From positions 6,425,321 to 6,489,320 of the forward strand of contig OZ025877.1 of NCBI GenBank assembly GCA_964019415.1: 64,000 nt of DNA. The letters are read 5' to 3'. The translations under genes were made by a program, and so were the position numbers. How positions within the stretch are numbered: position 1 is the stretch's first letter; each line of letters starts with the position of its first letter. Source of the DNA: Ianthella basta. Lineage: Eukaryota; Porifera; Demospongiae; Verongiida; Ianthellidae. Under the pieces are notes generated by a model. That model was not told the DNA's origin, ran no database searches, and saw nothing but the letters and a program-made list of their open reading frames with translations. This document shows, one piece after another, positions 22,229 through 34,945 of this stretch.

Positions 22229-25200
22229 ATGGCCTGTTGTCGAGATTGTTGTACACCGTGTTGTAAACAGTGCACTGTGAAGACCAAACGAGAGTTCCAC
22301 TGGACCCGACTCCTGCTGAGGCACAGGGACTGGAGGACGGTAGCCTACTCACCGGTAAGCCTGGACGGGGTTACTATAGCTGGATTTGGGGAACTATAGC
22401 TATAACTAATGGGCCTATGCGTGTAGTATGTTGCATGCATATGCATTATGGTTTGAGCGGTTGATGGATGGTTTTCGCTGTATAATTACACATGTCAACG
22501 TATTATAGTTTACATTCGGCTTGTAGTGCCAAGTATTTACGAAGAGCTGTATGGTTCGAGGGTATTCCTTCGACACACGTACTGTGATGATAATGTCATG
22601 TCATTGATCAGCGGCTCAGTCAGTGGCCTCTTCTATGCACTTATAGTATTAGCTACTAGCAGCAAAATTTTTCTTTTAAAGCTAAAGGGACAGGGATTTG
22701 TCAGCTATACCAACATGATCAGTGCATAATATATGTCTGCTACTCCTGGTTTCTAATGAGTGCACGCACAGATCTGCCAATCACATTCATGTCTGCATGA
22801 AAGCATGACCATGTACACTCACTTGAAAACCGGAGTAATGAGCCTGGCTAGGTGTAGAATTGAAACAGCAAGTTTGTAAGGCGCTCTCTATAGGATTTCT
22901 GTCATTCCTCAGATTTCAGTTTCTATTTCATAGAATTCATGTGGTCATAGCAGGAAAGAACTCACTGATAGGTCACCTAACTGTTGTCTTTCAGGGCATC
23001 ACACTATAGAGATAACATCAATAGTGAAGGCTTTCACTGGAGCAAGCACTGTACCTGAAGCCACTGAAATGACATCCTGTGTGAATACACCTCCCACTCA
23101 TGATCACCCAACTATATATAGCAAGGTGTGATGGAGACAATGTATGGAATGTAGCTTCCTGTATATGTGATCCCTACCAGACCAAGAGCACACTCCCGTA
23201 TTCACACATGCACGTTAGCTCACACACAGTAAGCACATGCACTTGTGCAGAGATACGAAGCCCAGTATACCACCAGCACAAGTTACAAAAGGTGATTGCA
23301 ACCACCATGAGTGTTGTTGGAGTGTTTGATGGAACAATCAACTGCAACTTGCATATGGGCAAGCACAATATTGGCTATCTGCTTTATGCAAGTTTAGTAT
23401 AATACTCTTGCTTAACTTCTATTGGTGACAAACTCCTGCTAATTGCATGGGTGCCACATATCTCTGGTGGATTGGCACTTATGTAATCTCATTAACACTG
23501 ATGGACCATATACACTTGCTGTCCAAAAAGTTTCATGACTGTACACAACCTGTATTTGGTTTATATTTCTACAATGCCATGTATTAGCATAAATGTTTCA
23601 TGCATTCAATGTTGCGCTATATGAGCATTTATATTAGCACTTTGGATACAACTTGCGTGAGGATTGAGGCCTAATTAGGAGCCTGTCTATGTTGTTAGTT
23701 GGCAGTGGTGTGTTATGTGTGGGTGCATGCGGGTGTGGCTGTGACAGACACACACATAGACACACCCTATAGCTCACACTTGGTGCAATTTGTCTCTCCA
23801 TTAATTACATTAATGTTATAGTTTCTGTACCAGCTGCTGTCTATTTTATAGAACACAGCCAAATCTGTCTTGAGTTCAGCCCTATGTGTTGCTAATGGTT
23901 AGTCACTCGAGCCTTTATGCTCTACCTAAGTGCAAAGACTATGCCTCTTTTCTCATTGCATAATGTTATATATTTCAGTTATTTGCCGTTGCTAGGCATA
24001 CGTATCTATCACCGAACTTCACTAACCAAAACTTTGAATAAAACCAAACGTTTCGACTACTATACAGTTGTCATCGTCAGTGGCGAATACAAACCAAAGG
24101 ATAAGCTCGCTTTAAGTACACTAAAAAAAGGTGGGAAAAGGGTACGAAATCAAAACGGGAGTGACAGCTAATGACATATATGAATAAATTAACAGTTGAA
24201 ATTAAGGGGGGACAGAGTTAGTGATCTAAATAGAAAACAAAGAATTGTATAGCTGGGGCATTGAGCCTTTGTCCCTATTTAATGGTCTGACCTGTGATCT
24301 AATGTGTATGGATTCTAAGACTAGTCTCTGGTGTAAATGTGGCTGGTGTTCTAGTACCTTGACGTTGTCCCAATCTACTGGGTGGTGGGCTCCCCAGGCA
24401 TGCTCTGCCAGTGCAGAGGTGGCTGCTTGCCCTGACTCCACTGCCCGCCTGTGTTCATTCAGCCGTTGGTCAAGGCGTCTGCCGGTCTGACCGACATAGG
24501 TGGCAGGGCAGCCAGCACATGGGACCTGGTACACAACACCAGTGAGTTCCTTCTCTGGGACGCGGTCTTTTGGTCTTGACAGAAGCTGCCTGAGTGTCGT
24601 GTGTGGCCGGAAGGAGACCCTGACACCTACTGGAGTAAGGATGCATCTCACTGCCTCCGACACCCCTCGCACGTAGGGTAGTGTGATGACTGGGCCCTGA
24701 GTGTCATCTCGTTCCACTGGTCTGGTGGACCGCACCGTTGAGTGGCGTTGGATCACCCCTTTGGGATAGCCGTTAGCAGTGAGTGCCTGCCTGACGTGCC
24801 TCGTCTCTTCATCCTTGCCCACCACAGACGAGTTGATGGTCTCTGCTCTGCTGTGTAGCGTTCTGACAACTGCGATTTTGTGGGCGAGGGGGTGGTGGGA
24901 TGCAAAGTCCAAGTACCTATCAGTGTGTAAAGGCTTCCTGTAAACTGTTGTCGACACCGAACCGTCAGGGTTATGACTTAGTAGCACATCAGCAGCTTCC
25001 CGTCCGACTCCACTTCTACTGTGAAGCGGATGCTAGGCTCTACCCCGTTCAGATGGTCCAGGAACCTCTGCACATCGTCGGCTGGTAGTACTGTGCATGT
25101 GTCGTGAACATACCGTTTCCAGAACCGGGGATGCACGTCTGTCGTTGCCAGAGCTCTCTGTTCCACATCTTCCATCACTAGTTGCTAGGCAGTTGCTATG

Positions 25201-26783
25201 TTTATTGAGTGACTATAAAAGTGCTACTTGCAGTGAGAGGTGACAATTTGTTATCAGACAGCGATTATATCTTATTGGAGAGCGATTATATCTTATTGGA
25301 GAGCAAGAATATCTAATTGGGTTCACTAGCTAAAGAATGAAAATGCATTGGATTCGCCCGCTATCCCCTAATCCTTTCCTTATTTGGCAAGAAACCAATT
25401 AACATTTGCCCACGCTTCCCTTTGTTCGGCAAATAAATCACTTATAACACCTCCTTTTCGGTATGTCGCTGATTTATAAGCACTCCCCCCTAGGGCGCTT
25501 CGCGTCCTCGGGCCTCGTGCTTATAAATCAGCAACATCCCTCAAAGAGGTGCACACAAAACATACAGTTTTGTAGTAGTACGTACAGTCATGCATACGTA
25601 ATTGTGCAGTCAGCTACATACAGTTTTGCATGCAGCTGATGAAGGCCTCAGTGGCTGAAATGTCCTGCAATCAGTAACTATTGTTGATTGATTTTGCTAC
25701 GTCATTGCTCATGAACTATTCACCTATGTATACATTGAACAATGTAGCAATGAGCCTCTTCTTGGTGTTTGGGCTATCTTAGAGTGCAGATGCATGCACT
25801 TTAAAATAGGAGATAAAGTACAGAGAATATATATACTTACTAGCTTGCAAATTGGCTAGCTTGCATAATGTTTTAAGCATATATAATATGCACGCATTCT
25901 ATTCCTCCATCTCCTACAGTGGTTGCCATACAATGCTTGGCAAGTGATTCACATTGCTTGGCGATGGATTCTGGTATACTTCTTCTTTGCCTGGCTGGTT
26001 GTGTCAGGCGTTGAGTGGAGTCACCCCACCTATTTCATCTATTTGACCAACTGGGGCATGCTGACATGGGTCTTGTACCTCATCGTGTCTGCACTGTCAT
26101 GCACAGTGAAATTCACTTTCGACATGTACGCCCGAATCAAAGGGAATAACAGTGTCAACACGGAGGTAGAACTGGCGGAGAGAAAGGATGTGGAGAGCGG
26201 GAACACTGCAACGGAACAAAGCAATGTTGACGAAGACATTTATGCCAATTGGCGTACTGACAATGTGGCTTGGTATCAGAAGATTCATTGGGTTCTCTAC
26301 AACACCTCCATCCCACTTGAAATTGGCATTGCCATTCTATACTGGGCGCTCCTTTACAACCCAGCTGTAGTCATTGGCTCTGCAGGTGTCAACTTCAACA
26401 CCCACCTCACCCCAGCACTGATTGCCTTGCTAGACGTATGGATCAGCAGCATCTTACTCAACATCTACCACTTTTACATGATCCTCTTGTATGGAGTGGT
26501 GTATGGCGCTTTCTCGTTGATCTACTTCGCTGCTGGAGGGATGGACCAGGAAGGAAATCGTTACATCTATTCAATCCTCGACTATGGGGATAGTCCTGGC
26601 TTGGCAGCTGGAGTACTCCTCGGATCAGTGTTTGTCTTCTTCCCGTTCTGCTATGTTCTCTGCTACCTTATCACTCTGCCAAGAAGGTGGCTCTCCAGCA
26701 AGTTCCATCAGTTGTGTTACATCACCCTGCCCAAAAGATGGCCCTCCAACAAGCACCTCCAGTCATGTTTTAAAGAACAGTAG
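22229..26783 (+). CDS. Rolling-stone-like multipass membrane protein 2 (2 exons)
   Basis: Exons 22229-22354 and 25920-26783, phase 0 (ACTCACCG|gtaagc ... cctacag|TGGTTGCCA), 329 aa. Exon 1 gives MACCRDCCTPCCKQC followed by HWTRLLLRHRDWRTVAYSP; the Cys cluster could be palmitoylated (inference). Exon 2 has about six hydrophobic helices (near residues 52-72, 84-102, 154-179, 196-220, 222-242, 266-290) and the family motif FSLIYFAAGGMDQEGNRYIY then LDYG--PG. An acidic/polar loop lies between helices 2 and 3. The C-terminus holds an internal tandem duplication: ITLPRRWLSSKFHQLCY is followed by ITLPKRWPSNKHLQSCF. Cellular role in this animal unknown; Drosophila rolling stone acts in myoblast fusion. 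A PLE lies antisense in the intron. Confidence 0.87.
22355..24042. other. Intron of rolling-stone-like gene 2, left part
   Basis: No gene. 23265-23370 has CACCAGCACAAGTTACA and CAACTGCAACTTGCAT, similar to foldback-family ends at 7787, and may be a decayed copy. Confidence 0.4.
24043..24084 (-). ncRNA. Hammerhead-ribozyme-like motif A (PLE 2, 3' side)
   Basis: Minus strand, 5' to 3': GCCA, CUGACGA, one extra U, imperfect stem II (GACAACU/AGUAGUC with GUAU loop), GAAAC, GUU, UGGU. Stem I GCCA/UGGU closes the fold. It lies about 140 bp 3' of PLE 2 coding sequence in the same orientation, the position expected for a PLE terminal-repeat ribozyme. Confidence 0.6.
24226..25178 (-). mobile_element. 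Penelope-like element 2 (partial RT plus GIY-YIG)
   Basis: Minus strand, 5'-truncated. 25178-24978: RT motif C region, RFWKRYVHDTCTVLP, where most PLEs have YVDD; here the first Asp is His. The frame is lost after DGKL and resumes with DVLLSHNPDGSV, consistent with a short deletion. 24987-24226: YRKPLHTDRYLDF--HHP thumb region, LPYVRGVSEAV, then the GIY-YIG nuclease GVVYQVPCAGCPATYVGQTGR, RLDQRLNEHRRAV and the end LESIHIR...PLNRDKGSMPQLY. PLEs copy themselves via this RT plus endonuclease. This copy cannot be active. It is antisense in the intron of gene 2. Confidence 0.9.
25463..25537. repeat. Hairpin: 21-bp inverted repeat with CG-rich loop
   Basis: 25463-25483 and 25517-25537 are reverse complements (core GCTGATTTATAAGCAC) with one mismatch. 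The 33-bp loop is GC-rich (CCCTAGGGCGCTTCGCG). It lies near a 21-bp direct repeat (CGATTATATCTTATTGGAGA, twice at about 25263-25305). Confidence 0.8.
25631..25669 (+). ncRNA. Hammerhead-ribozyme-like motif B
   Basis: Plus strand: UGCAG, CUGAUGA, extra A, stem II GGCC/GGCU with UCAGU loop, GAAAU, GUC, CUGCA. Stem I (UGCAG/CUGCA) is perfect over 5 bp. No PLE coding sequence adjoins it on this strand; it may be a solo terminal-repeat relic. Confidence 0.5.
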
Positions 26784-29009: not shown

Positions 29010-32000
29010 ATGGCCTGTTGTTGTACACCCTGTTGTGAGCAGTGCACTGTGAAGACCAAACGAGAGTTCCACTGGACCCGACTCCTGCTGAGGCACAGGG
29101 ACTGGAGGACGGTAGCCTACTCACCGGTAAGCCTGGACGGGGTTACACTGTCGATAGGCGCCGCACAAGCCTGCATGCGCACTGCCACAACATAGCTACA
29201 ATCATCTGTATGAGGAGTCTGGGCACGCTAGACTAGCTCCTTTCTCCATTCCCAATGGTCCGTTCTGCTTCTGGAGGACCGTTTTTGACTGATAGGGTTG
29301 TGCTAAAAATGAGGAGGAGTGCGTGACACACACAGCGACACCCCAATTAATGTGATCCAGAGCCTGCTGTGTCACGCTATGCTGTACCCATTCGACATCC
29401 GTGCTTCCCAACGTCATACTGTGCATAAGAAGGTTCAGCCAAAAGACTCTTGTATGCATCAATAAGACAATGATTAGTTCAAAGACACGCATGCGCACTG
29501 CCTGAGACATGATTACAGACAAGGATGCAATTAGTTAATGCTACTAAGTAGGAATAGGCAGGGGTCATACATTACATAGTACTTCAGATGCAGTAGAGAA
29601 CCGAGATGGCCAGGTCAACGGGAGGTGTCCTGGTGGCGTGTCCACAGCTGGAATGGGCACCTCTGATGCATTGGGTGGCAGAGTGGAGCAGTGAGAAAGT
29701 GAGGTGGCAGCATAGCCAGGACGTGGTGGTGGGGTACGGCTGGTCCCATTTCGTGGCTAGACAGGAGGCCAGACGTTTGTAGAAAAAAGTGGCTTGGTTA
29801 GCCATACCTCCAGTAGCTGAGAGGACCAGTGGTGTGAAAGTGGCATGCTCAATCTCCTGGACTCTCTGCTTGTATGCGCGCTTCTTCACAGACTCATGTT
29901 TCGGTAGCAGACGACAAGGTTTGATTGTTGGTTGGAGGGGGCACGTGGATTGAACACACGAATGTCCAAAAATGTTCTTTCAGACTGGCCTCCCAGAAAC
30001 CGTTGGTGGCAATGTCAAACCGTGCGCCATCCTGAGCATTGGAAGTGACACCTGTGAGCGCTTCCCCAGTGAGAGGTTGTAGTTTTGGCTCAATGCAGAC
30101 ATCATTGTAGACTTCTGTTAGAAAGTCGGTGGTCAGATCACGAATTTCATTAATATTGTGTCTTAACGATGGGAAGCCACCTTTGGGCAAGAGAGAGCAT
30201 GTTCCACGGGGAACTTGGTACCACAACCACATGTTCATGGAACTTGTTGGGGTGACCAGTTGTATCTGAGGGCTAGTGCGTCATGAAATGCCCCCTTGTG
30301 GAGTGCGAAGCCAAACTCTTCTATTGACAGTGAAGAAAGCCAAGATGAGGCTCCTATTTCTTGAGCAAGGTCCATGGAGCACCTGAGAGAGTGTGGGAGA
30401 GATTCTCTCACTTGCTCAGATGTTTGTGTGGCTTGCTCCTGTTTCAGTTTACGCATTTCTGTTTTGGCTTCGAGTTGGTGGCAATGACTTCTTCACTGTA
30501 GTGAAGGTCTTGGTGGAGAATGGCCTCTGTCATGGCCTCAGTGATCTTGGTAGAGCACTGAAATGCAGACTCAGTTGCATGGGTAGGGTTGGCTATTGCA
30601 ATGCCTCCTATAGTGTAGCTGGTAGAGCTAGGAGGTCTTGTTCCTTTTCATTTGGTAGTGGTCTGTCTGTCAGTGCGGGGATTAGTTTGGTTCTGATGGT
30701 CCTTCAAGTGGAGAAAGGCTAGGACCAACGTCTGGCATTGTGCGAGTGGGGTAGGTCCATTTGCCAGTCATGCCATGAGTGAAGGTGGCATGTGCAGCGT
30801 GAGGTTGGCTGTGTGTGATGGTAACCAGTTGCTCCAGTTCTCCAGTCAATTGTCGGACCTTGTCAGACACAAATGCTTGCACATACTCTTCTGTACCAAG
30901 GGCTGCACCAAGATAGGGTCTGCCCTCAGTAGTCACCTTCACTGTCAGCAAAAGTGGCTGTCGCAATAGAGAGGCAGTCCTTCTTGGTGACAATTCAGGA
31001 TTTGCTGGTGCTGGTGAAATAGCCAAATTTAGGAACAAGTGTGTTGAGTTGATCCCACCATTCGCACAGTCTGTGGGCCTTTCCAGCTCCCAAGGCATCA
31101 TCTGCAAACCAAACTTGGCTGACATCCTGTACACTCCTTCAGCTTCCTGATCAGAGGAATGGTGGCTAGAGCGTACATGGGCATGGCAAGTGGGTCCCCC
31201 TGAGTGGTTCCCTCGTGAGAAAGGAGTGCGTCGCCATCTACAAACAGTTCAGAGGCGGCCGTGTGTTGATGAGAGCAGTGGTGATAAGAGTGGTAGAGTT
31301 TCTGAATGTTGTGTATATAGGGCTGTAAGTCGGTTGAGGGAATTGAAAGCTGTAAAGGCCTGAGTGGCTAGACAGATTCATGCTGATATTTCTCAAAGAC
31401 ACTAGCCAAAGGGAATCAGATATCAGACGTTTCGGCAGCGCTACGGCTGCCTTCATCAGTGATTATAATGACACTTACAAGCAGGTGCATAAATAGGGAT
31501 GGCTGGTTGGTCACGTGAGGCACTGGTGTTTACAGGAATAAGCACACATCATGCAATGTCTCTAGTGTTTACAGGAATAAGCATACATCATGCAATGTCT
31601 CTAACCGGAAAAGGGGGTTAAAAATAATAAGTGAAAACGAAATAATACTAATAACAGATGGGTGGTTACATGAATCAATCCAGAAGGGTTGCATAGAGCC
31701 CTGGCATGGGGCCCCTCTCTCTGTTGAGAGGGGCTTGCTGGTGTTGAATGTGCCAAGACTCTAGCAAGCACCGGATCTGGGTGTGCGGATGGTAGTCAAT
31801 CACCAACACCTTTGACAGGTCAACCTGGTGGCCAGCTGTAAACACATGAGAAAGGGTTGGCTCTCCAATACCAGCTTCACAACAGGGTTGAAAACCTTGC
31901 CGACGTTTCGACCAGATGCTCTGGTCTTCTTCAGGGCGTTTTTCAACCCTGTTGTGAAGCTGGTATTGGAGAACCAACCCTTTCTGATGCCTGAGCCAGC

Positions 32001-34945
32001 TGAGAAGCCCTCACTTCATTGTAAACACATGCTCAGCAACAGCCGAAGCTGTGACATCTCCATTCCTCAGGGCCCGACGATGCTCCTGCAGGCGCAGGTC
32101 CAGTGACTTCCCAGTCTGTCCAATGTAGGTGCGGGGGCACTCAGCACACAGGATGCTGTAGACCACCCCCTTCCTTTTGGACACCGGGACAGGGTCCTTG
32201 GGGTGGACCAACATCTGCTTCAGAGTAGTGAAAGGGCGGAACATCACCCAGATGGAGAGGGGGCTGAGGATACGTCTAATTGACTCTGATAGACCCTTGA
32301 TGTACGGGAGAGTCAGAGTGGCGCACGTCTCATCACGCTGTGAGGTTTCATCGCCCCTGGGACATGTCTGCTTCTTGATGAACCCCTTGGGGTACCCGTT
32401 CTTCTGGAGGGCCTCCATCACATGCTTCTCCTCTTGTACTCAGCTCACTGCTGATGACGACAGACTCTCGGTCCTAGACATCAAAGTTCTGACCACAGAC
32501 CGCTTGTGTGCCACTGGGTGATGAGATTGAAAGTCAGGCATTGAGGAATGGAGATGTCACAGCTTCGGCTGTTGCTGAGCATGTGTTTACAGCTGGCCAC
32601 CAGGTTGACCTGTCAAAGGCGTCGGTGATTGACTACCATCTGCACACCTAGTGTCACCTATTTTAATATGGTGGACACCAGGGTTTTGTTGAGGGCGATA
32701 AGATGGCTGGCCATAAGTGGTGCCACAATTGCTGGATCAACCAGCTCGGTGCATAGTCGTCGTGCAGTTGCAGCCAGGGAATGGCACAGCTCTGAGGACG
32801 CTGACTTAAATGATGTACATAGCCTTCTCCAGCTGAGTGCATCGACCCCAGAAGGTCCTGCTGCTCCACTAGTGCGCAAGGCTGCAGATCTGATCATCCC
32901 TGCATCCAGGGATTCGAATAGGACTGGGTGAACATCAGGGGGGTCATCATTGATGATGGCGTCGTGGCAGGCAGGTTGACCTGTCGGTGTTAATATTTGT
33001 TGGACAGGATATCCCTCGCTTTTCTCTGTCCATTCTCCATTTCAATTGGGTCGTCAAGGTAGAGTAAATCTCCTTTACTTTGCACAGAGAGGAGGTGGAG
33101 TGCTGCATGAGTTTTCCCTAGGAACATCAGATTTGTGCAAGAGCGGGACAACGGTTCATTATTGATAGAGGATGTGGACTTAGGGATATGCTGCTGTATG
33201 GTTCTCCCTTCTCTCAAAGGTTCATTAAGGTCTCCAATTCGCTAGGTGAACAGGTGCCCCCATGGCTAGCAGACAGGAGGAATGAGTGGGTTGGAGACAT
33301 GGGAGTGGGTGTTAGAACTAACATGGGTGACCACTTGTTGGATGCCACAAAGACACATGGGACAGTTAGGAAGCAAAACTATGGAAGGGCAAGTGGAAGC
33401 TGCTACGTACCTAAAATACGCCACCAATACACATGTTGTATAATATTATGGATGGAACCATCTGAAATCCGATAGTGGAATGCATCTAATCAGACACACA
33501 GTCTGTCTACATCCATCCTGCTGTGATTATGCCCATGATTCCTTAACTCCACATTGACCACTGTACACTGCAGTTAACCTGTATCTAATGCTAAGCTTGC
33601 ACAATTCCATGAAAACGCTAACCAAATCACACTTGAATAATACTTCAATTGTATTACATACGTGTAGGGTATAGCGTGCATGATGGCACTCTCACCTAGT
33701 TAACCACCACACACTCTGTAAGCCATCACCACTGAAGAAGGCAGCGGTTAGCTGCCGAAATGTTTGGTAAAGAAATAAAATCTTTGGTTAATTTCATGAC
33801 TTCCAAGAGAACTACCAGTTATGCTGGGCTATGTTTAAATTGGCTTATGCATGCCCGGCAGAACAGCCCAGACTGCCCAGGCCATGGTCTGACCAGATTT
33901 TTTGGTCTGCCCATGCTTTTCCATAGCTAAGATACTTCCTGGCCTGTGCAAGTGGCCGTCTAGGTTAAATATTGTTCTGACTTGGCCTGACCAGCTTTAA
34001 ACTGCTTCCTCTGGGCCTGTTATGTACATGTATAGATTGAGTAAGAGGCGGTTGGACATTTAATACATTGTAACCCAAGCCCTGGGTTATGCACTTACGT
34101 ATATACGCCTTCTGTTGTTTCATGTTCTACAGTGGTTACCGTACAATGCTTGGCAGATTGTTTACATGGTATGGAGGTGGACTATGGCGTGCTATTTCTC
34201 TGCCTGGCTGGTTGTGTCAGGCATTGAGGGGAGTCACCCCACCTATTTCATCTATATGACCAACTGGGGCATGCTGACATGGGTCTTGTACCTCATCGTG
34301 TCTGCTCTGTCATGCACAGTGAAGTTCACTTTCGACATGTATGCCCGAATCAAAGGGAATAACAGTGTCAACACGGAGGTAGAGCTGGCGGAGAGAAAGG
34401 ATGTGGAGAGCGGGAACACTGCAACGGATCATAGCAATGTGAACATTTATGACGACTGGCGTTTTGACAATGTGGCTTGGTATCAGAAGATTCATTGGGT
34501 TCTCTACAACAACAGTATCCCAATAGAGATAGGTATTGCTATCATATACTGGGCACTCCTCTATGAGCCTAGCGCCGACATGACTTCCATTGCAGTTGGC
34601 GTCAACTTCAACACCCACCTCACCCCAGCACTGATTGCCTTGCTAGACATATGGATCAGCGGCATCATACTCAACATCTACCACTTTTACATGATCCTCC
34701 TGTATGGAGTGGTGTATGGTGCTTTCTCGTTGATCTACTTCGCTGCTGGAGGGATGGACCAGGAAGGAAATCGTTACATCTATTCAATCCTCGACTATGG
34801 GGGTAATCCTGGCTTGGCAGCTGGAGTACTCCTTGGATCAGTGTTTGTCTTCTTCCCGTTCTGCTATGTTCTCTGCTACCTTATCACTCTGCCAAGAAGG
34901 TGGCTCTCCAGCAAGCTCCACCAGTCATGTTACAAAGACCAATAG
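29010..34945 (+). CDS. Rolling-stone-like multipass membrane protein 3 (2 exons)
   Basis: Exons 29010-29126 and 34133-34945, phase 0 (ACTCACCG|gtaagc ... ttctacag|TGGTTACCG), 309 aa. Exon 1 (MACCCTPCCEQC, then HWTRLLLRHRDWRTVAYSP) is nearly identical to exon 1 of gene 2, as is the first ~20 bp of the intron, so the duplication is recent. Exon 2 keeps all helices and the FSLIYFAAGGMDQEGNRYIY motif. It ends at the first WLSSKLHQSCYKDQ, without the C-terminal duplication of gene 2. Paralogues differ most around GVNFNTHLTP, between helices 3 and 4. The 5-kb intron carries an RT element, PLE 3 and three hammerhead-like motifs. Confidence 0.88.
29584..31370 (-). mobile_element. Unnamed RT element, 3' part (RT, Cys/His, C-terminal domain)
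   Basis: Minus strand, several frames. From right: AFNSLNR (motif A region, catalytic Asp not visible), GTTQGDPLAMPMYALA (motif B), VWFADDALGAGK (motif C, about 31100), TEGRPYLGAALGTEEYV, then LALRYNWSP, GGFPSLRHNINEIRDLTTD, DGARFDIATNGFWE, and IEHATFTPLVLSATGGM near the end. I recall this order from dispersed animal RT proteins but cannot name the clade. The spaced Cys/His followed by acidic motifs is compatible with a restriction-like endonuclease (inference). Frameshifts and stops make it a relic. Confidence 0.75.
31422..31463 (-). ncRNA. Hammerhead-ribozyme-like motif C (PLE 3, 3' side)
   Basis: Minus strand: AUCA, CUGAUGA, extra A, stem II GGCAGC/GCUGCC with a CGUAGC loop, GAAAC, GUC, UGAU. 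Stem I is AUCA/UGAU. It is located 3' of PLE 3 coding sequence. Confidence 0.62.
31849..32019 (-). mobile_element. 171-bp ribozyme-bearing hairpin insertion, 12-bp TSD
   Basis: Inserted in the GIY-YIG coding region of PLE 3. TGTAAACACATG is present at 31837-31848 and 32020-32031; the inverted duplicate at 32541-32648 has the sequence once, uninterrupted (32580-32591, reverse strand). Within the insert 31854-31894 and 31940-31980 are 41-bp inverted arms with one mismatch, and the loop carries a hammerhead-like core. No ORF. Probably a non-autonomous element mobilised by a PLE-type machinery (inference). Confidence 0.85.
31899..31937 (-). ncRNA. Hammerhead-ribozyme-like motif D (hairpin loop)
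   Basis: Minus strand: GCC, CUGAAGA, extra A, stem II GACCAGA/UCUGGUC with GCA loop, GAAAC, GUC, GGC. Stem I starts with GCC/GGC and, after a short bulge, is prolonged by the 41-bp arms of the insertion, an unusually long closing helix. Confidence 0.62.
32541..32648 (+). mobile_element. Inverted duplicate of PLE 3 GIY-YIG segment
   Basis: On the plus strand this reads LRNGDVTASAVAEHVFTAGHQVDLSK and IDYHLHT in separate parts, homologous to the reverse strand of 31789-32080 but lacking the hairpin insertion. It abuts the truncated 5' end of PLE 3, the arrangement made by 5' inversion during target-primed reverse transcription. Confidence 0.85.
32658..33217 (-). mobile_element. Unnamed RT element, 5' part
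   Basis: Minus strand. 33217-32990: LSRSCTNLMFLGKTHAALHLLS and YLDDPIE. 32897-32658: AALRTSGAAGPSGVDALSWRRL, ELCHSLAATARRLCTELVDP and LIALNKT, then NKNPGV-like codons after a one-base slip, immediately before the PLE 3 junction. These precede the RT core in the same family as 29584-31370, in the correct order and orientation. About 100 codons are missing at the junction. Confidence 0.72.
33218..34132. other. 3' end of intron of rolling-stone-like gene 3
   Basis: No gene recognised apart from the hammerhead-like motif at 33728-33768. The first few hundred bases may be the 5' end of the RT element. Confidence 0.4.
33728..33768 (+). ncRNA. Hammerhead-ribozyme-like motif E
   Basis: Plus strand: ACCA, CUGAAGA, extra A, stem II GGCAGC/GCUGCC with GGUUA loop, GAAAU, GUU, UGGU. 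Stem I is ACCA/UGGU. It is in the sense strand of the gene-3 intron, with no PLE ORF beside it. Confidence 0.55.

Follow-up and report, generated by a model that had tools for sequence, protein, structure and literature searches.

Penelope-like elements (PLEs) that carry an endonuclease are known from rotifers to form head-to-head inverted copies of their pseudo-long terminal repeat (pLTR), with an optional 31-bp tail at one of the copies (Arkhipova et al. 2013, PMC3846280). In these elements the pLTR extends into the first codons of the open reading frame (ORF), target duplications measure 8-10 bp and junctions show palindromes; the mechanism preferred in that study was self-priming with antisense RNA or DNA as template (PMC3846280). 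For Poseidon of Anolis carolinensis, work in vitro described two adjacent internal start sites of reverse transcription (RT) near the ORF start, with the tail corresponding to the interval that separates them, cleavage and extension of both strands of the target, and a hammerhead ribozyme at the ORF start; later steps of PLE insertion were called yet to be validated (Frangieh et al. 2024, PMC11167929). Our statements on these papers, and on the others cited below, refer to the available parts of their texts. Here we analyse a stretch of 64,000 nucleotides from the sponge Ianthella basta (contig OZ025877.1, positions 6,425,321 to 6,489,320; hereafter the window), which holds a 171-bp hairpin-forming insert with a hammerhead motif. 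With high probability, this ORF-less insert arose as a by-product when an autonomous PLE with an endonuclease integrated, two target-primed cDNAs being joined head to head.

The inserts of this family resemble those of the rotifer PLEs in their head-to-head leaders, one-sided tail, short duplications, junction palindromes and a unit that reaches the first codons. They differ in that the rotifer inserts are few and mostly contain an ORF or captured DNA, whereas most inserts sampled here consist of leader only and the family is large (PMC3846280). As in Poseidon, their two types of outer end, E1 and E2, resemble two start sites, the tail is the stretch between these, and both strands appear, from the scars, to have been extended; short inverted inserts are not described in the available part of the Poseidon report, whereas here they form a large set (PMC11167929). 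Animal retrozymes are short repeated sequences that contain a type I hammerhead; where target duplications accompany them, these exceed 4 bp (Cervera and de la Pena 2020, PMC7229834). The inserts studied here are likewise short, with a type I hammerhead core and duplications above 4 bp, but unlike animal retrozymes most of them are inverted pairs whose outer ends lie at presumed PLE start sites of RT (PMC7229834). Thus head-to-head pLTRs with a one-sided tail are already known; leader-only inserts, a rule for the pairing of start sites and inserts ending at the ribozyme cut were not found in the open-licence papers searched.

The window insert and its source element

The insert occupies positions 31849-32019 of the window, between exact 12-bp copies of TGTAAACACATG (Table 1). 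An inverted duplicate of the same host segment lacks it and has the target site once, with 94-95% identity on both sides, which bears out the insertion, target duplication and empty site reported in the first-pass annotation. The hairpin described there is present as well, with arms longer than the 41 bp then given: they measure 50 nt at 96% complementarity (31845-31894 and 31940-31989), a count that takes in 4 nt of the left duplication. The 45-nt loop that separates the paired arms contains, as had been stated, the hammerhead core (CTGAAGA...GAAACGTC) on the minus strand; in PLE terms, this core is part of the left leader copy.

Both arms align to a 129-nt unit. In an autonomous PLE of this genome, seen in locus L038, the unit covers the 5' leader and the initial codons. 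Unit 1 is ATCTTCGCC, CTGAAGA starts at 10, GAAACGTC occupies 35-42, and the outer ends E1 and E2 fall at 95 and 129, 34 nt apart. Because a TATA box, TATAAATA, starts 30 nt upstream of unit 1, the latter is very likely the mRNA start of the PLE. We take the source element to be a PLE on account of RT and endonuclease motifs that we presume to be diagnostic. Its predicted minimal hammerhead, with the core motif and stems I and II within unit 1-49, lies beside the ORF start, and minimal hammerheads without helix III are known in PLEs (PMC6155905). In another locus (L112) the frame is open throughout, from the hammerhead through the RT to the endonuclease, and the PLE is in tandem with a 2605-bp period, giving the tandem pLTR arrangement. 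Pfam assigns RVT_1 to the element at E 3.9e-06, under its own cut-off, and does not call GIY-YIG in the element itself; the C-terminus is 76% identical to that of a relative (P0006) that passes the Pfam GIY-YIG cut-off. The PLE has 1054 homologues among 7992 scored candidates, and none of the solved structures matches it by sequence at E 0.01. In the genome, the C-terminal 325 residues gave at least 126 matches (123 of 1230 candidates scored), and four open frames of 837-854 residues lie at C3:7934567, C3:4022072, C4:303393 and C18:666795. Many PLE copies among the matches listed sit as minus-then-plus pairs with starts 0.6-3.9 kb apart.

Table 1. Coordinates of the insert, its parts and its empty counterpart in the window; "unit" refers to the 129-nt PLE leader unit
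Feature	Positions	Strand	Basis
Left target site duplication TGTAAACACATG, 12 bp	31837..31848		identical to 32020-32031
Left arm, PLE leader unit 95 (E1 end) back to 6, whole hammerhead core inside	31849..31938	-	L001 aligned to the 129-nt unit
Predicted hammerhead core, CTGAAGA-stem II-GAAACGTC	31902..31934	-	motif scan and fold of unit 1-49 (stems I, II)
Predicted hammerhead cut (GTC^GGC)	between 31902 and 31901		position assumed from hammerhead chemistry
Head-to-head junction, one unassigned base; inner ends unit 6 (E1 arm) and unit 50 (E2 arm)	31939		
Right arm, PLE leader unit 50 to 95	31940..31985	+	unit alignment
34-nt tail, unit 96-129 (E2 end), one side only	31986..32019	+	unit alignment; genome matches to its 28-mer
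Right target site duplication, 12 bp	32020..32031		identical to left copy
Inverted duplicate of host segment, insert-free; empty site 32580-32591	32533..32651	-	

Outer ends, arms and junctions across the genome

In the 209-Mb genome searched (G000, in which the window lies on contig C10), the insert matches at least 40 places (40 of 1078 candidates scored; 80 matches counting both arms and strands). The 28-mer of the one-sided tail has 1291 genome matches with up to 3 mismatches and a 23-mer of the arm has 2234, with none for either reversed control; these totals are not a hairpin count, because some of the matches fall within long PLE copies. We sampled 30 loci ranked by similarity (L001-L030), loci on C1 chosen by the exact tail (the majority of the tail places listed for C1, but not every one) and 20 loci chosen by the exact arm without the exact tail. 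In a first parse L001-L113 fell into 122 groups, of which 84 had two arms and 38 a single arm (26 E2, 11 E1 and 1 other). Left out of the two-armed analysis were long PLE copies (L071, L112, L113 and L038), rearranged loci (L032 and L046), a near copy of L035 with one arm cut (L036), duplicates of other loci (L054, L055 and L093) and a locus with a repetitive target, itself E1/E2 (L048). With L114-L133 added, the final set comprises 92 two-armed inserts, 62 of them on C1, among which screening of pairs for segmental duplicates was partial. Tail pairs 6.2 kb apart on C1 were considered as one full-length element and rejected, having turned out to be two hairpins. There are thus many copies with differing flanks, so that the objection foreseen in the first-pass annotation, a segmental duplication carrying the same flanks along, does not apply.

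The outer ends follow a pairing rule. Both could be typed in 86 of the 92 inserts (the other 6 are untyped on one side), and all 86 pair one E1 with one E2, in 46 cases as E2/E1 and in 40 as E1/E2, with end positions varying by a few bases about each; consequently the 34-nt tail is on one side only in every one of the 86. Exact target duplications of 10-15 bp flank 74/92 inserts, and when right flanks were swapped between inserts none of 452 combinations reached 10 bp. Across the 74 target sites, which are AT-rich, there is a weak symmetric bias towards A beyond the left cut and T beyond the right. A DNA transposon resembling a miniature inverted-repeat transposable element, moved by a transposase acting on terminal inverted repeats, would also produce inverted repeats, a flanking duplication and a high copy number. 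However, here the termini are asymmetric, one E1 and one E2, the exact duplications range from 10 to 15 bp in the 74 inserts instead of having a fixed length, the centre differs between copies, and the sequence is that of a PLE leader; we give such a transposon practically no chance.

Same-type pairs do occur when rearranged loci are included, the first parse giving 75 E1/E2, 2 E2/E2, 1 E1/E1 and 6 partly untyped. In L032 the flanks of the same-type end pairs are themselves palindromic, and in L046 an E2/E2 pair and an E1/E1 pair have one identical junction in common; these are probably later palindrome rearrangements. The 20 arm-chosen loci comprise 9 two-armed inserts, one with an untyped side and none of them E1/E1; the other 11 are single arms, including 8 E1 arms without an assigned partner.

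The two arms usually stem, it would appear from their variants, from a single source RNA or from RNAs transcribed at the same locus, since an A/G variant at unit 78 is the same on both arms in 78/86 inserts. Of 63 distinct rarer variants in unit 55-92, 5 are common to both arms, all of them a C insertion at 87 (permutations gave a mean of 0.54 and a maximum of 4). This concordance, like the head-to-head palindrome itself, would also be expected if a single PLE cDNA or antisense RNA snapped back and primed itself at the inner end, as proposed for the rotifer PLEs (PMC3846280). An arm copied in this way should mirror its partner, yet all 86 inserts have the 34-nt tail on one arm and the E1 stop at the duplication on the other. 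The inner ends also lie 40 nt or more apart in 19/92 inserts, as in the window copy (6 and 50), and filler separates the arms in 41/92. Self-priming of the rotifer kind is thus disfavoured here as the general route because the outer ends are unequal, and we consider it very unlikely.

Two target-primed cDNAs would instead meet at their inner ends. These vary, and in most inserts one arm extends to the presumed start of the mRNA. The smaller inner end falls at unit 1-6 in 70/92 inserts (48/62 on C1), at unit 18, a stem II palindrome, in 8/92, and at 43-44 in 5/92, each with a different duplication (5/62 on C1). Arms overlap at the junction by 4 or more bases in 24/92, whereas blunt joins placed at random within unit 1-70 would give 2.7%; 3/92 are blunt. 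Where the middle measures 91-120 nt (115 hairpin loci, 50 listed), inspection by eye showed the two arms mostly reaching unit 1 or close to it, with or without filler; in L037 the arms extend beyond unit 1 into the pLTR. Two fillers are about 50-70 nt long (L044 1434-1724 and L109 115-380), and that of L044 is similar to the target sequence beside it, as though copied from there in the course of repair. Because the junction differs between many inserts, the hairpins were made anew.

These results decide what remains of the first-pass proposal of a tiny non-autonomous retroelement with a ribozyme as its only functional part. Retro-insertion, the lack of an intact gene and the presence of a hammerhead motif stand; a self-standing unit that breeds as a hairpin is contradicted by the varying junctions, by a sequence that is the leader and first codons of an autonomous PLE, and by outer ends that lie at the expected PLE start sites of RT, not at the ribozyme cut. 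Nor is the ribozyme the working part of the insert; its apparent footprint is confined to the minority of inserts whose template it seems to have cut. The same applies to a retrozyme in the sense known from corals and mussels, a small non-autonomous retroelement spreading by self-cleaved circular RNA. Although shortness, the absence of an intact gene, a type I hammerhead core, many copies and duplications above 4 bp would all suit it, the ends at E1 and E2, the PLE leader and coding sequence and the variable junctions would not; moreover, the two-armed copies are inverted instead of head-to-tail monomers, and the loci are inverted pairs or single arms, tandem one-period monomers not having been met among them. 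We therefore hold a retrozyme to be highly improbable.

The same architecture recurs in other inserts. A long PLE insert, L113, runs from E2 through a head-to-head junction to E1. An unrelated hammerhead family, found at L065 549-873 (C1:6658400-6661900), has a one-sided tail of about 38 nt and a 13-bp duplication, TTGCTATATTATG; it is presumably also a PLE, two pairs of its places being spaced by 2647 and 2662 bp. A genome search with this family gave at least 40 places (40 of 301 candidates scored, 46 matches), including at least 5 clear inverted pairs with ends 31-35 nt apart and 1 partial pair, all with unequal ends; the remaining places have no partner among the matches listed.

Inserts that stop at the predicted hammerhead cut

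The hammerhead core pattern occurs at 5 sites in the window, including that of the insert, versus 0.12 per shuffle in 50 block-wise base shuffles. The four other motifs (24048-24080, 25636-25663, 31427-31459 and 33732-33763) probably belong to other PLE families. Folding of unit 1-49 gives a stable structure in which stems I and II are formed and pairs reach 48. The best Rfam match in the region is of another kind: the mir-76 model scores the palindrome 31861-31973 at E 9e-06, under its gathering score, and inverted PLE scars could thus pass for microRNA precursors.

Unit 43 is the first base past the predicted cut. We searched with a pattern that required both arm bases and a middle of 0-30 nt, which selects short arms, not position 43. 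In the 25 loci obtained, 26/50 arms stop exactly at 43 and none stops between 24 and 40. An arm at 43 is present in 19/25 loci, two such arms with filler between them in 7/25, and 4 loci are 44/44, with GC in common. Among loci with a middle of 31-60 nt (55, of which 50 were listed and inspected by eye), at least 2 have both arms at 43 and at least 2 pair 43 with 7 and 12. One junction recurs in 6 loci, 2 of which are one duplicated locus. The 5 independent inserts that this leaves all pair E1 with E2, and each is flanked by a 9-15-bp duplication of its own.

In a minority of inserts, then, arms that stop at 43 seem to be cDNAs that ran off a template cleaved by its own hammerhead. The stop could also be a structural pause of RT at the hammerhead fold or an effect of microhomology. 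The stability of the unit 1-49 fold speaks for a pause, the self-complementary GC at 44-45, which gives the 4 loci at 44/44, for microhomology, and the three loci that pair an arm at 43 with one reaching far beyond it suit either. But a stop at stem I would be expected at about 49, as pairs reach 48, and the longer palindromes ACGT (38-41) and TCGA (33-36) were allowed by the pattern, yet no junction falls there in the 25 loci. Also against these readings are the 7/25 loci with both arms at 43 and filler between, and the single junction found in at least 5 inserts with differing flanks. We regard a pause or microhomology as rather unlikely.

A proposed route of insertion and its significance

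We propose that the PLE would be transcribed from a pLTR promoter, with the TATA box at -30, into an mRNA presumably starting at ATCTTCGCC and carrying the hammerhead in its first 48 nt. The putative RT/GIY-YIG protein of the PLE would cut the two target strands about 12-14 nt apart, in keeping with the duplications observed. One target 3' end would then prime a cDNA at E1 (unit 95), the other one at E2 (unit 129), and both cDNAs would copy RNA of a single source, as suggested by the end pairing and the concordance at unit 78; this RNA may be one molecule or two. The cDNAs would run off the nearby 5' end of a short mRNA, and their 3' ends would be linked head to head through microhomology or filler, as seen at the junctions. 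Longer templates, starting in an upstream tandem PLE copy, may give the same architecture at PLE length (as in L113), and a smaller share of copies is one-armed.

LINE-1 twin priming similarly joins two target-primed cDNAs by microhomology into an inverted insert. There the cDNAs represent different parts of the RNA, whereas here both represent one and the same 5' stretch, begun at either of two fixed start sites. Taken together, we lean towards two-armed insertion by an obligatorily asymmetric complex of two polymerases, one on the E1 strand and one on the E2 strand with RNA from the same source, supplemented by a minority of hammerhead-cut templates.

Several points weigh against this account. 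For Poseidon no difference in start site between strands is reported, and no counterpart of the E1/E2 pairing rule seen here (PMC11167929). Unprocessed RNA was the main template in vitro, and in anole no RNA-seq reads were seen at the hammerhead cut, according to the available part of that report (PMC11167929). Single arms make up 38 of the 122 groups in L001-L113, some of them belonging to long PLE copies, and E1/E1 inserts are under-sampled because most loci were found by the tail and only 20 by the arm without the exact tail. The variant at unit 78 is unlike between the arms in 8/86 inserts, and 58/63 of the rare variants are on one arm only, the pattern expected of later mutation. If one RNA molecule served both cDNAs, the later one would have to displace the earlier. 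For this PLE, the activity of the hammerhead and the start of the mRNA are predictions from sequence; the Rfam hammerhead models gave no match in the window at gathering scores or in 31300-33800 at E up to 10, and when the whole leader (unit 1-129) is folded, stem I is not formed. Finally, in the mixed loci L008 (3 and 43), C4:4243554 and C8:7333273 one arm stops at 43 but the other at unit 3-12, and the arms of C17:1527204 stop at 23 and 41; therefore cleavage does not always precede both copies.

The short inserts display the steps of PLE insertion as scars: the spacing of the cuts, the paired start sites, the 5' ends of the templates, the joining and apparent ribozyme cleavage. These scars bear on how PLEs complete their insertion and on what their conserved hammerhead does, and from them follow precise predictions that are cheap to test on the purified enzyme. 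They also caution that animal hammerhead hairpins may be PLE debris, not retrozymes. If the proposed complex exists, the one-sided tail would be the signature of paired RT units; and if some templates were indeed cut by their own hammerhead, the genome would be a record of ribozyme cleavage during retrotransposition in a living animal.
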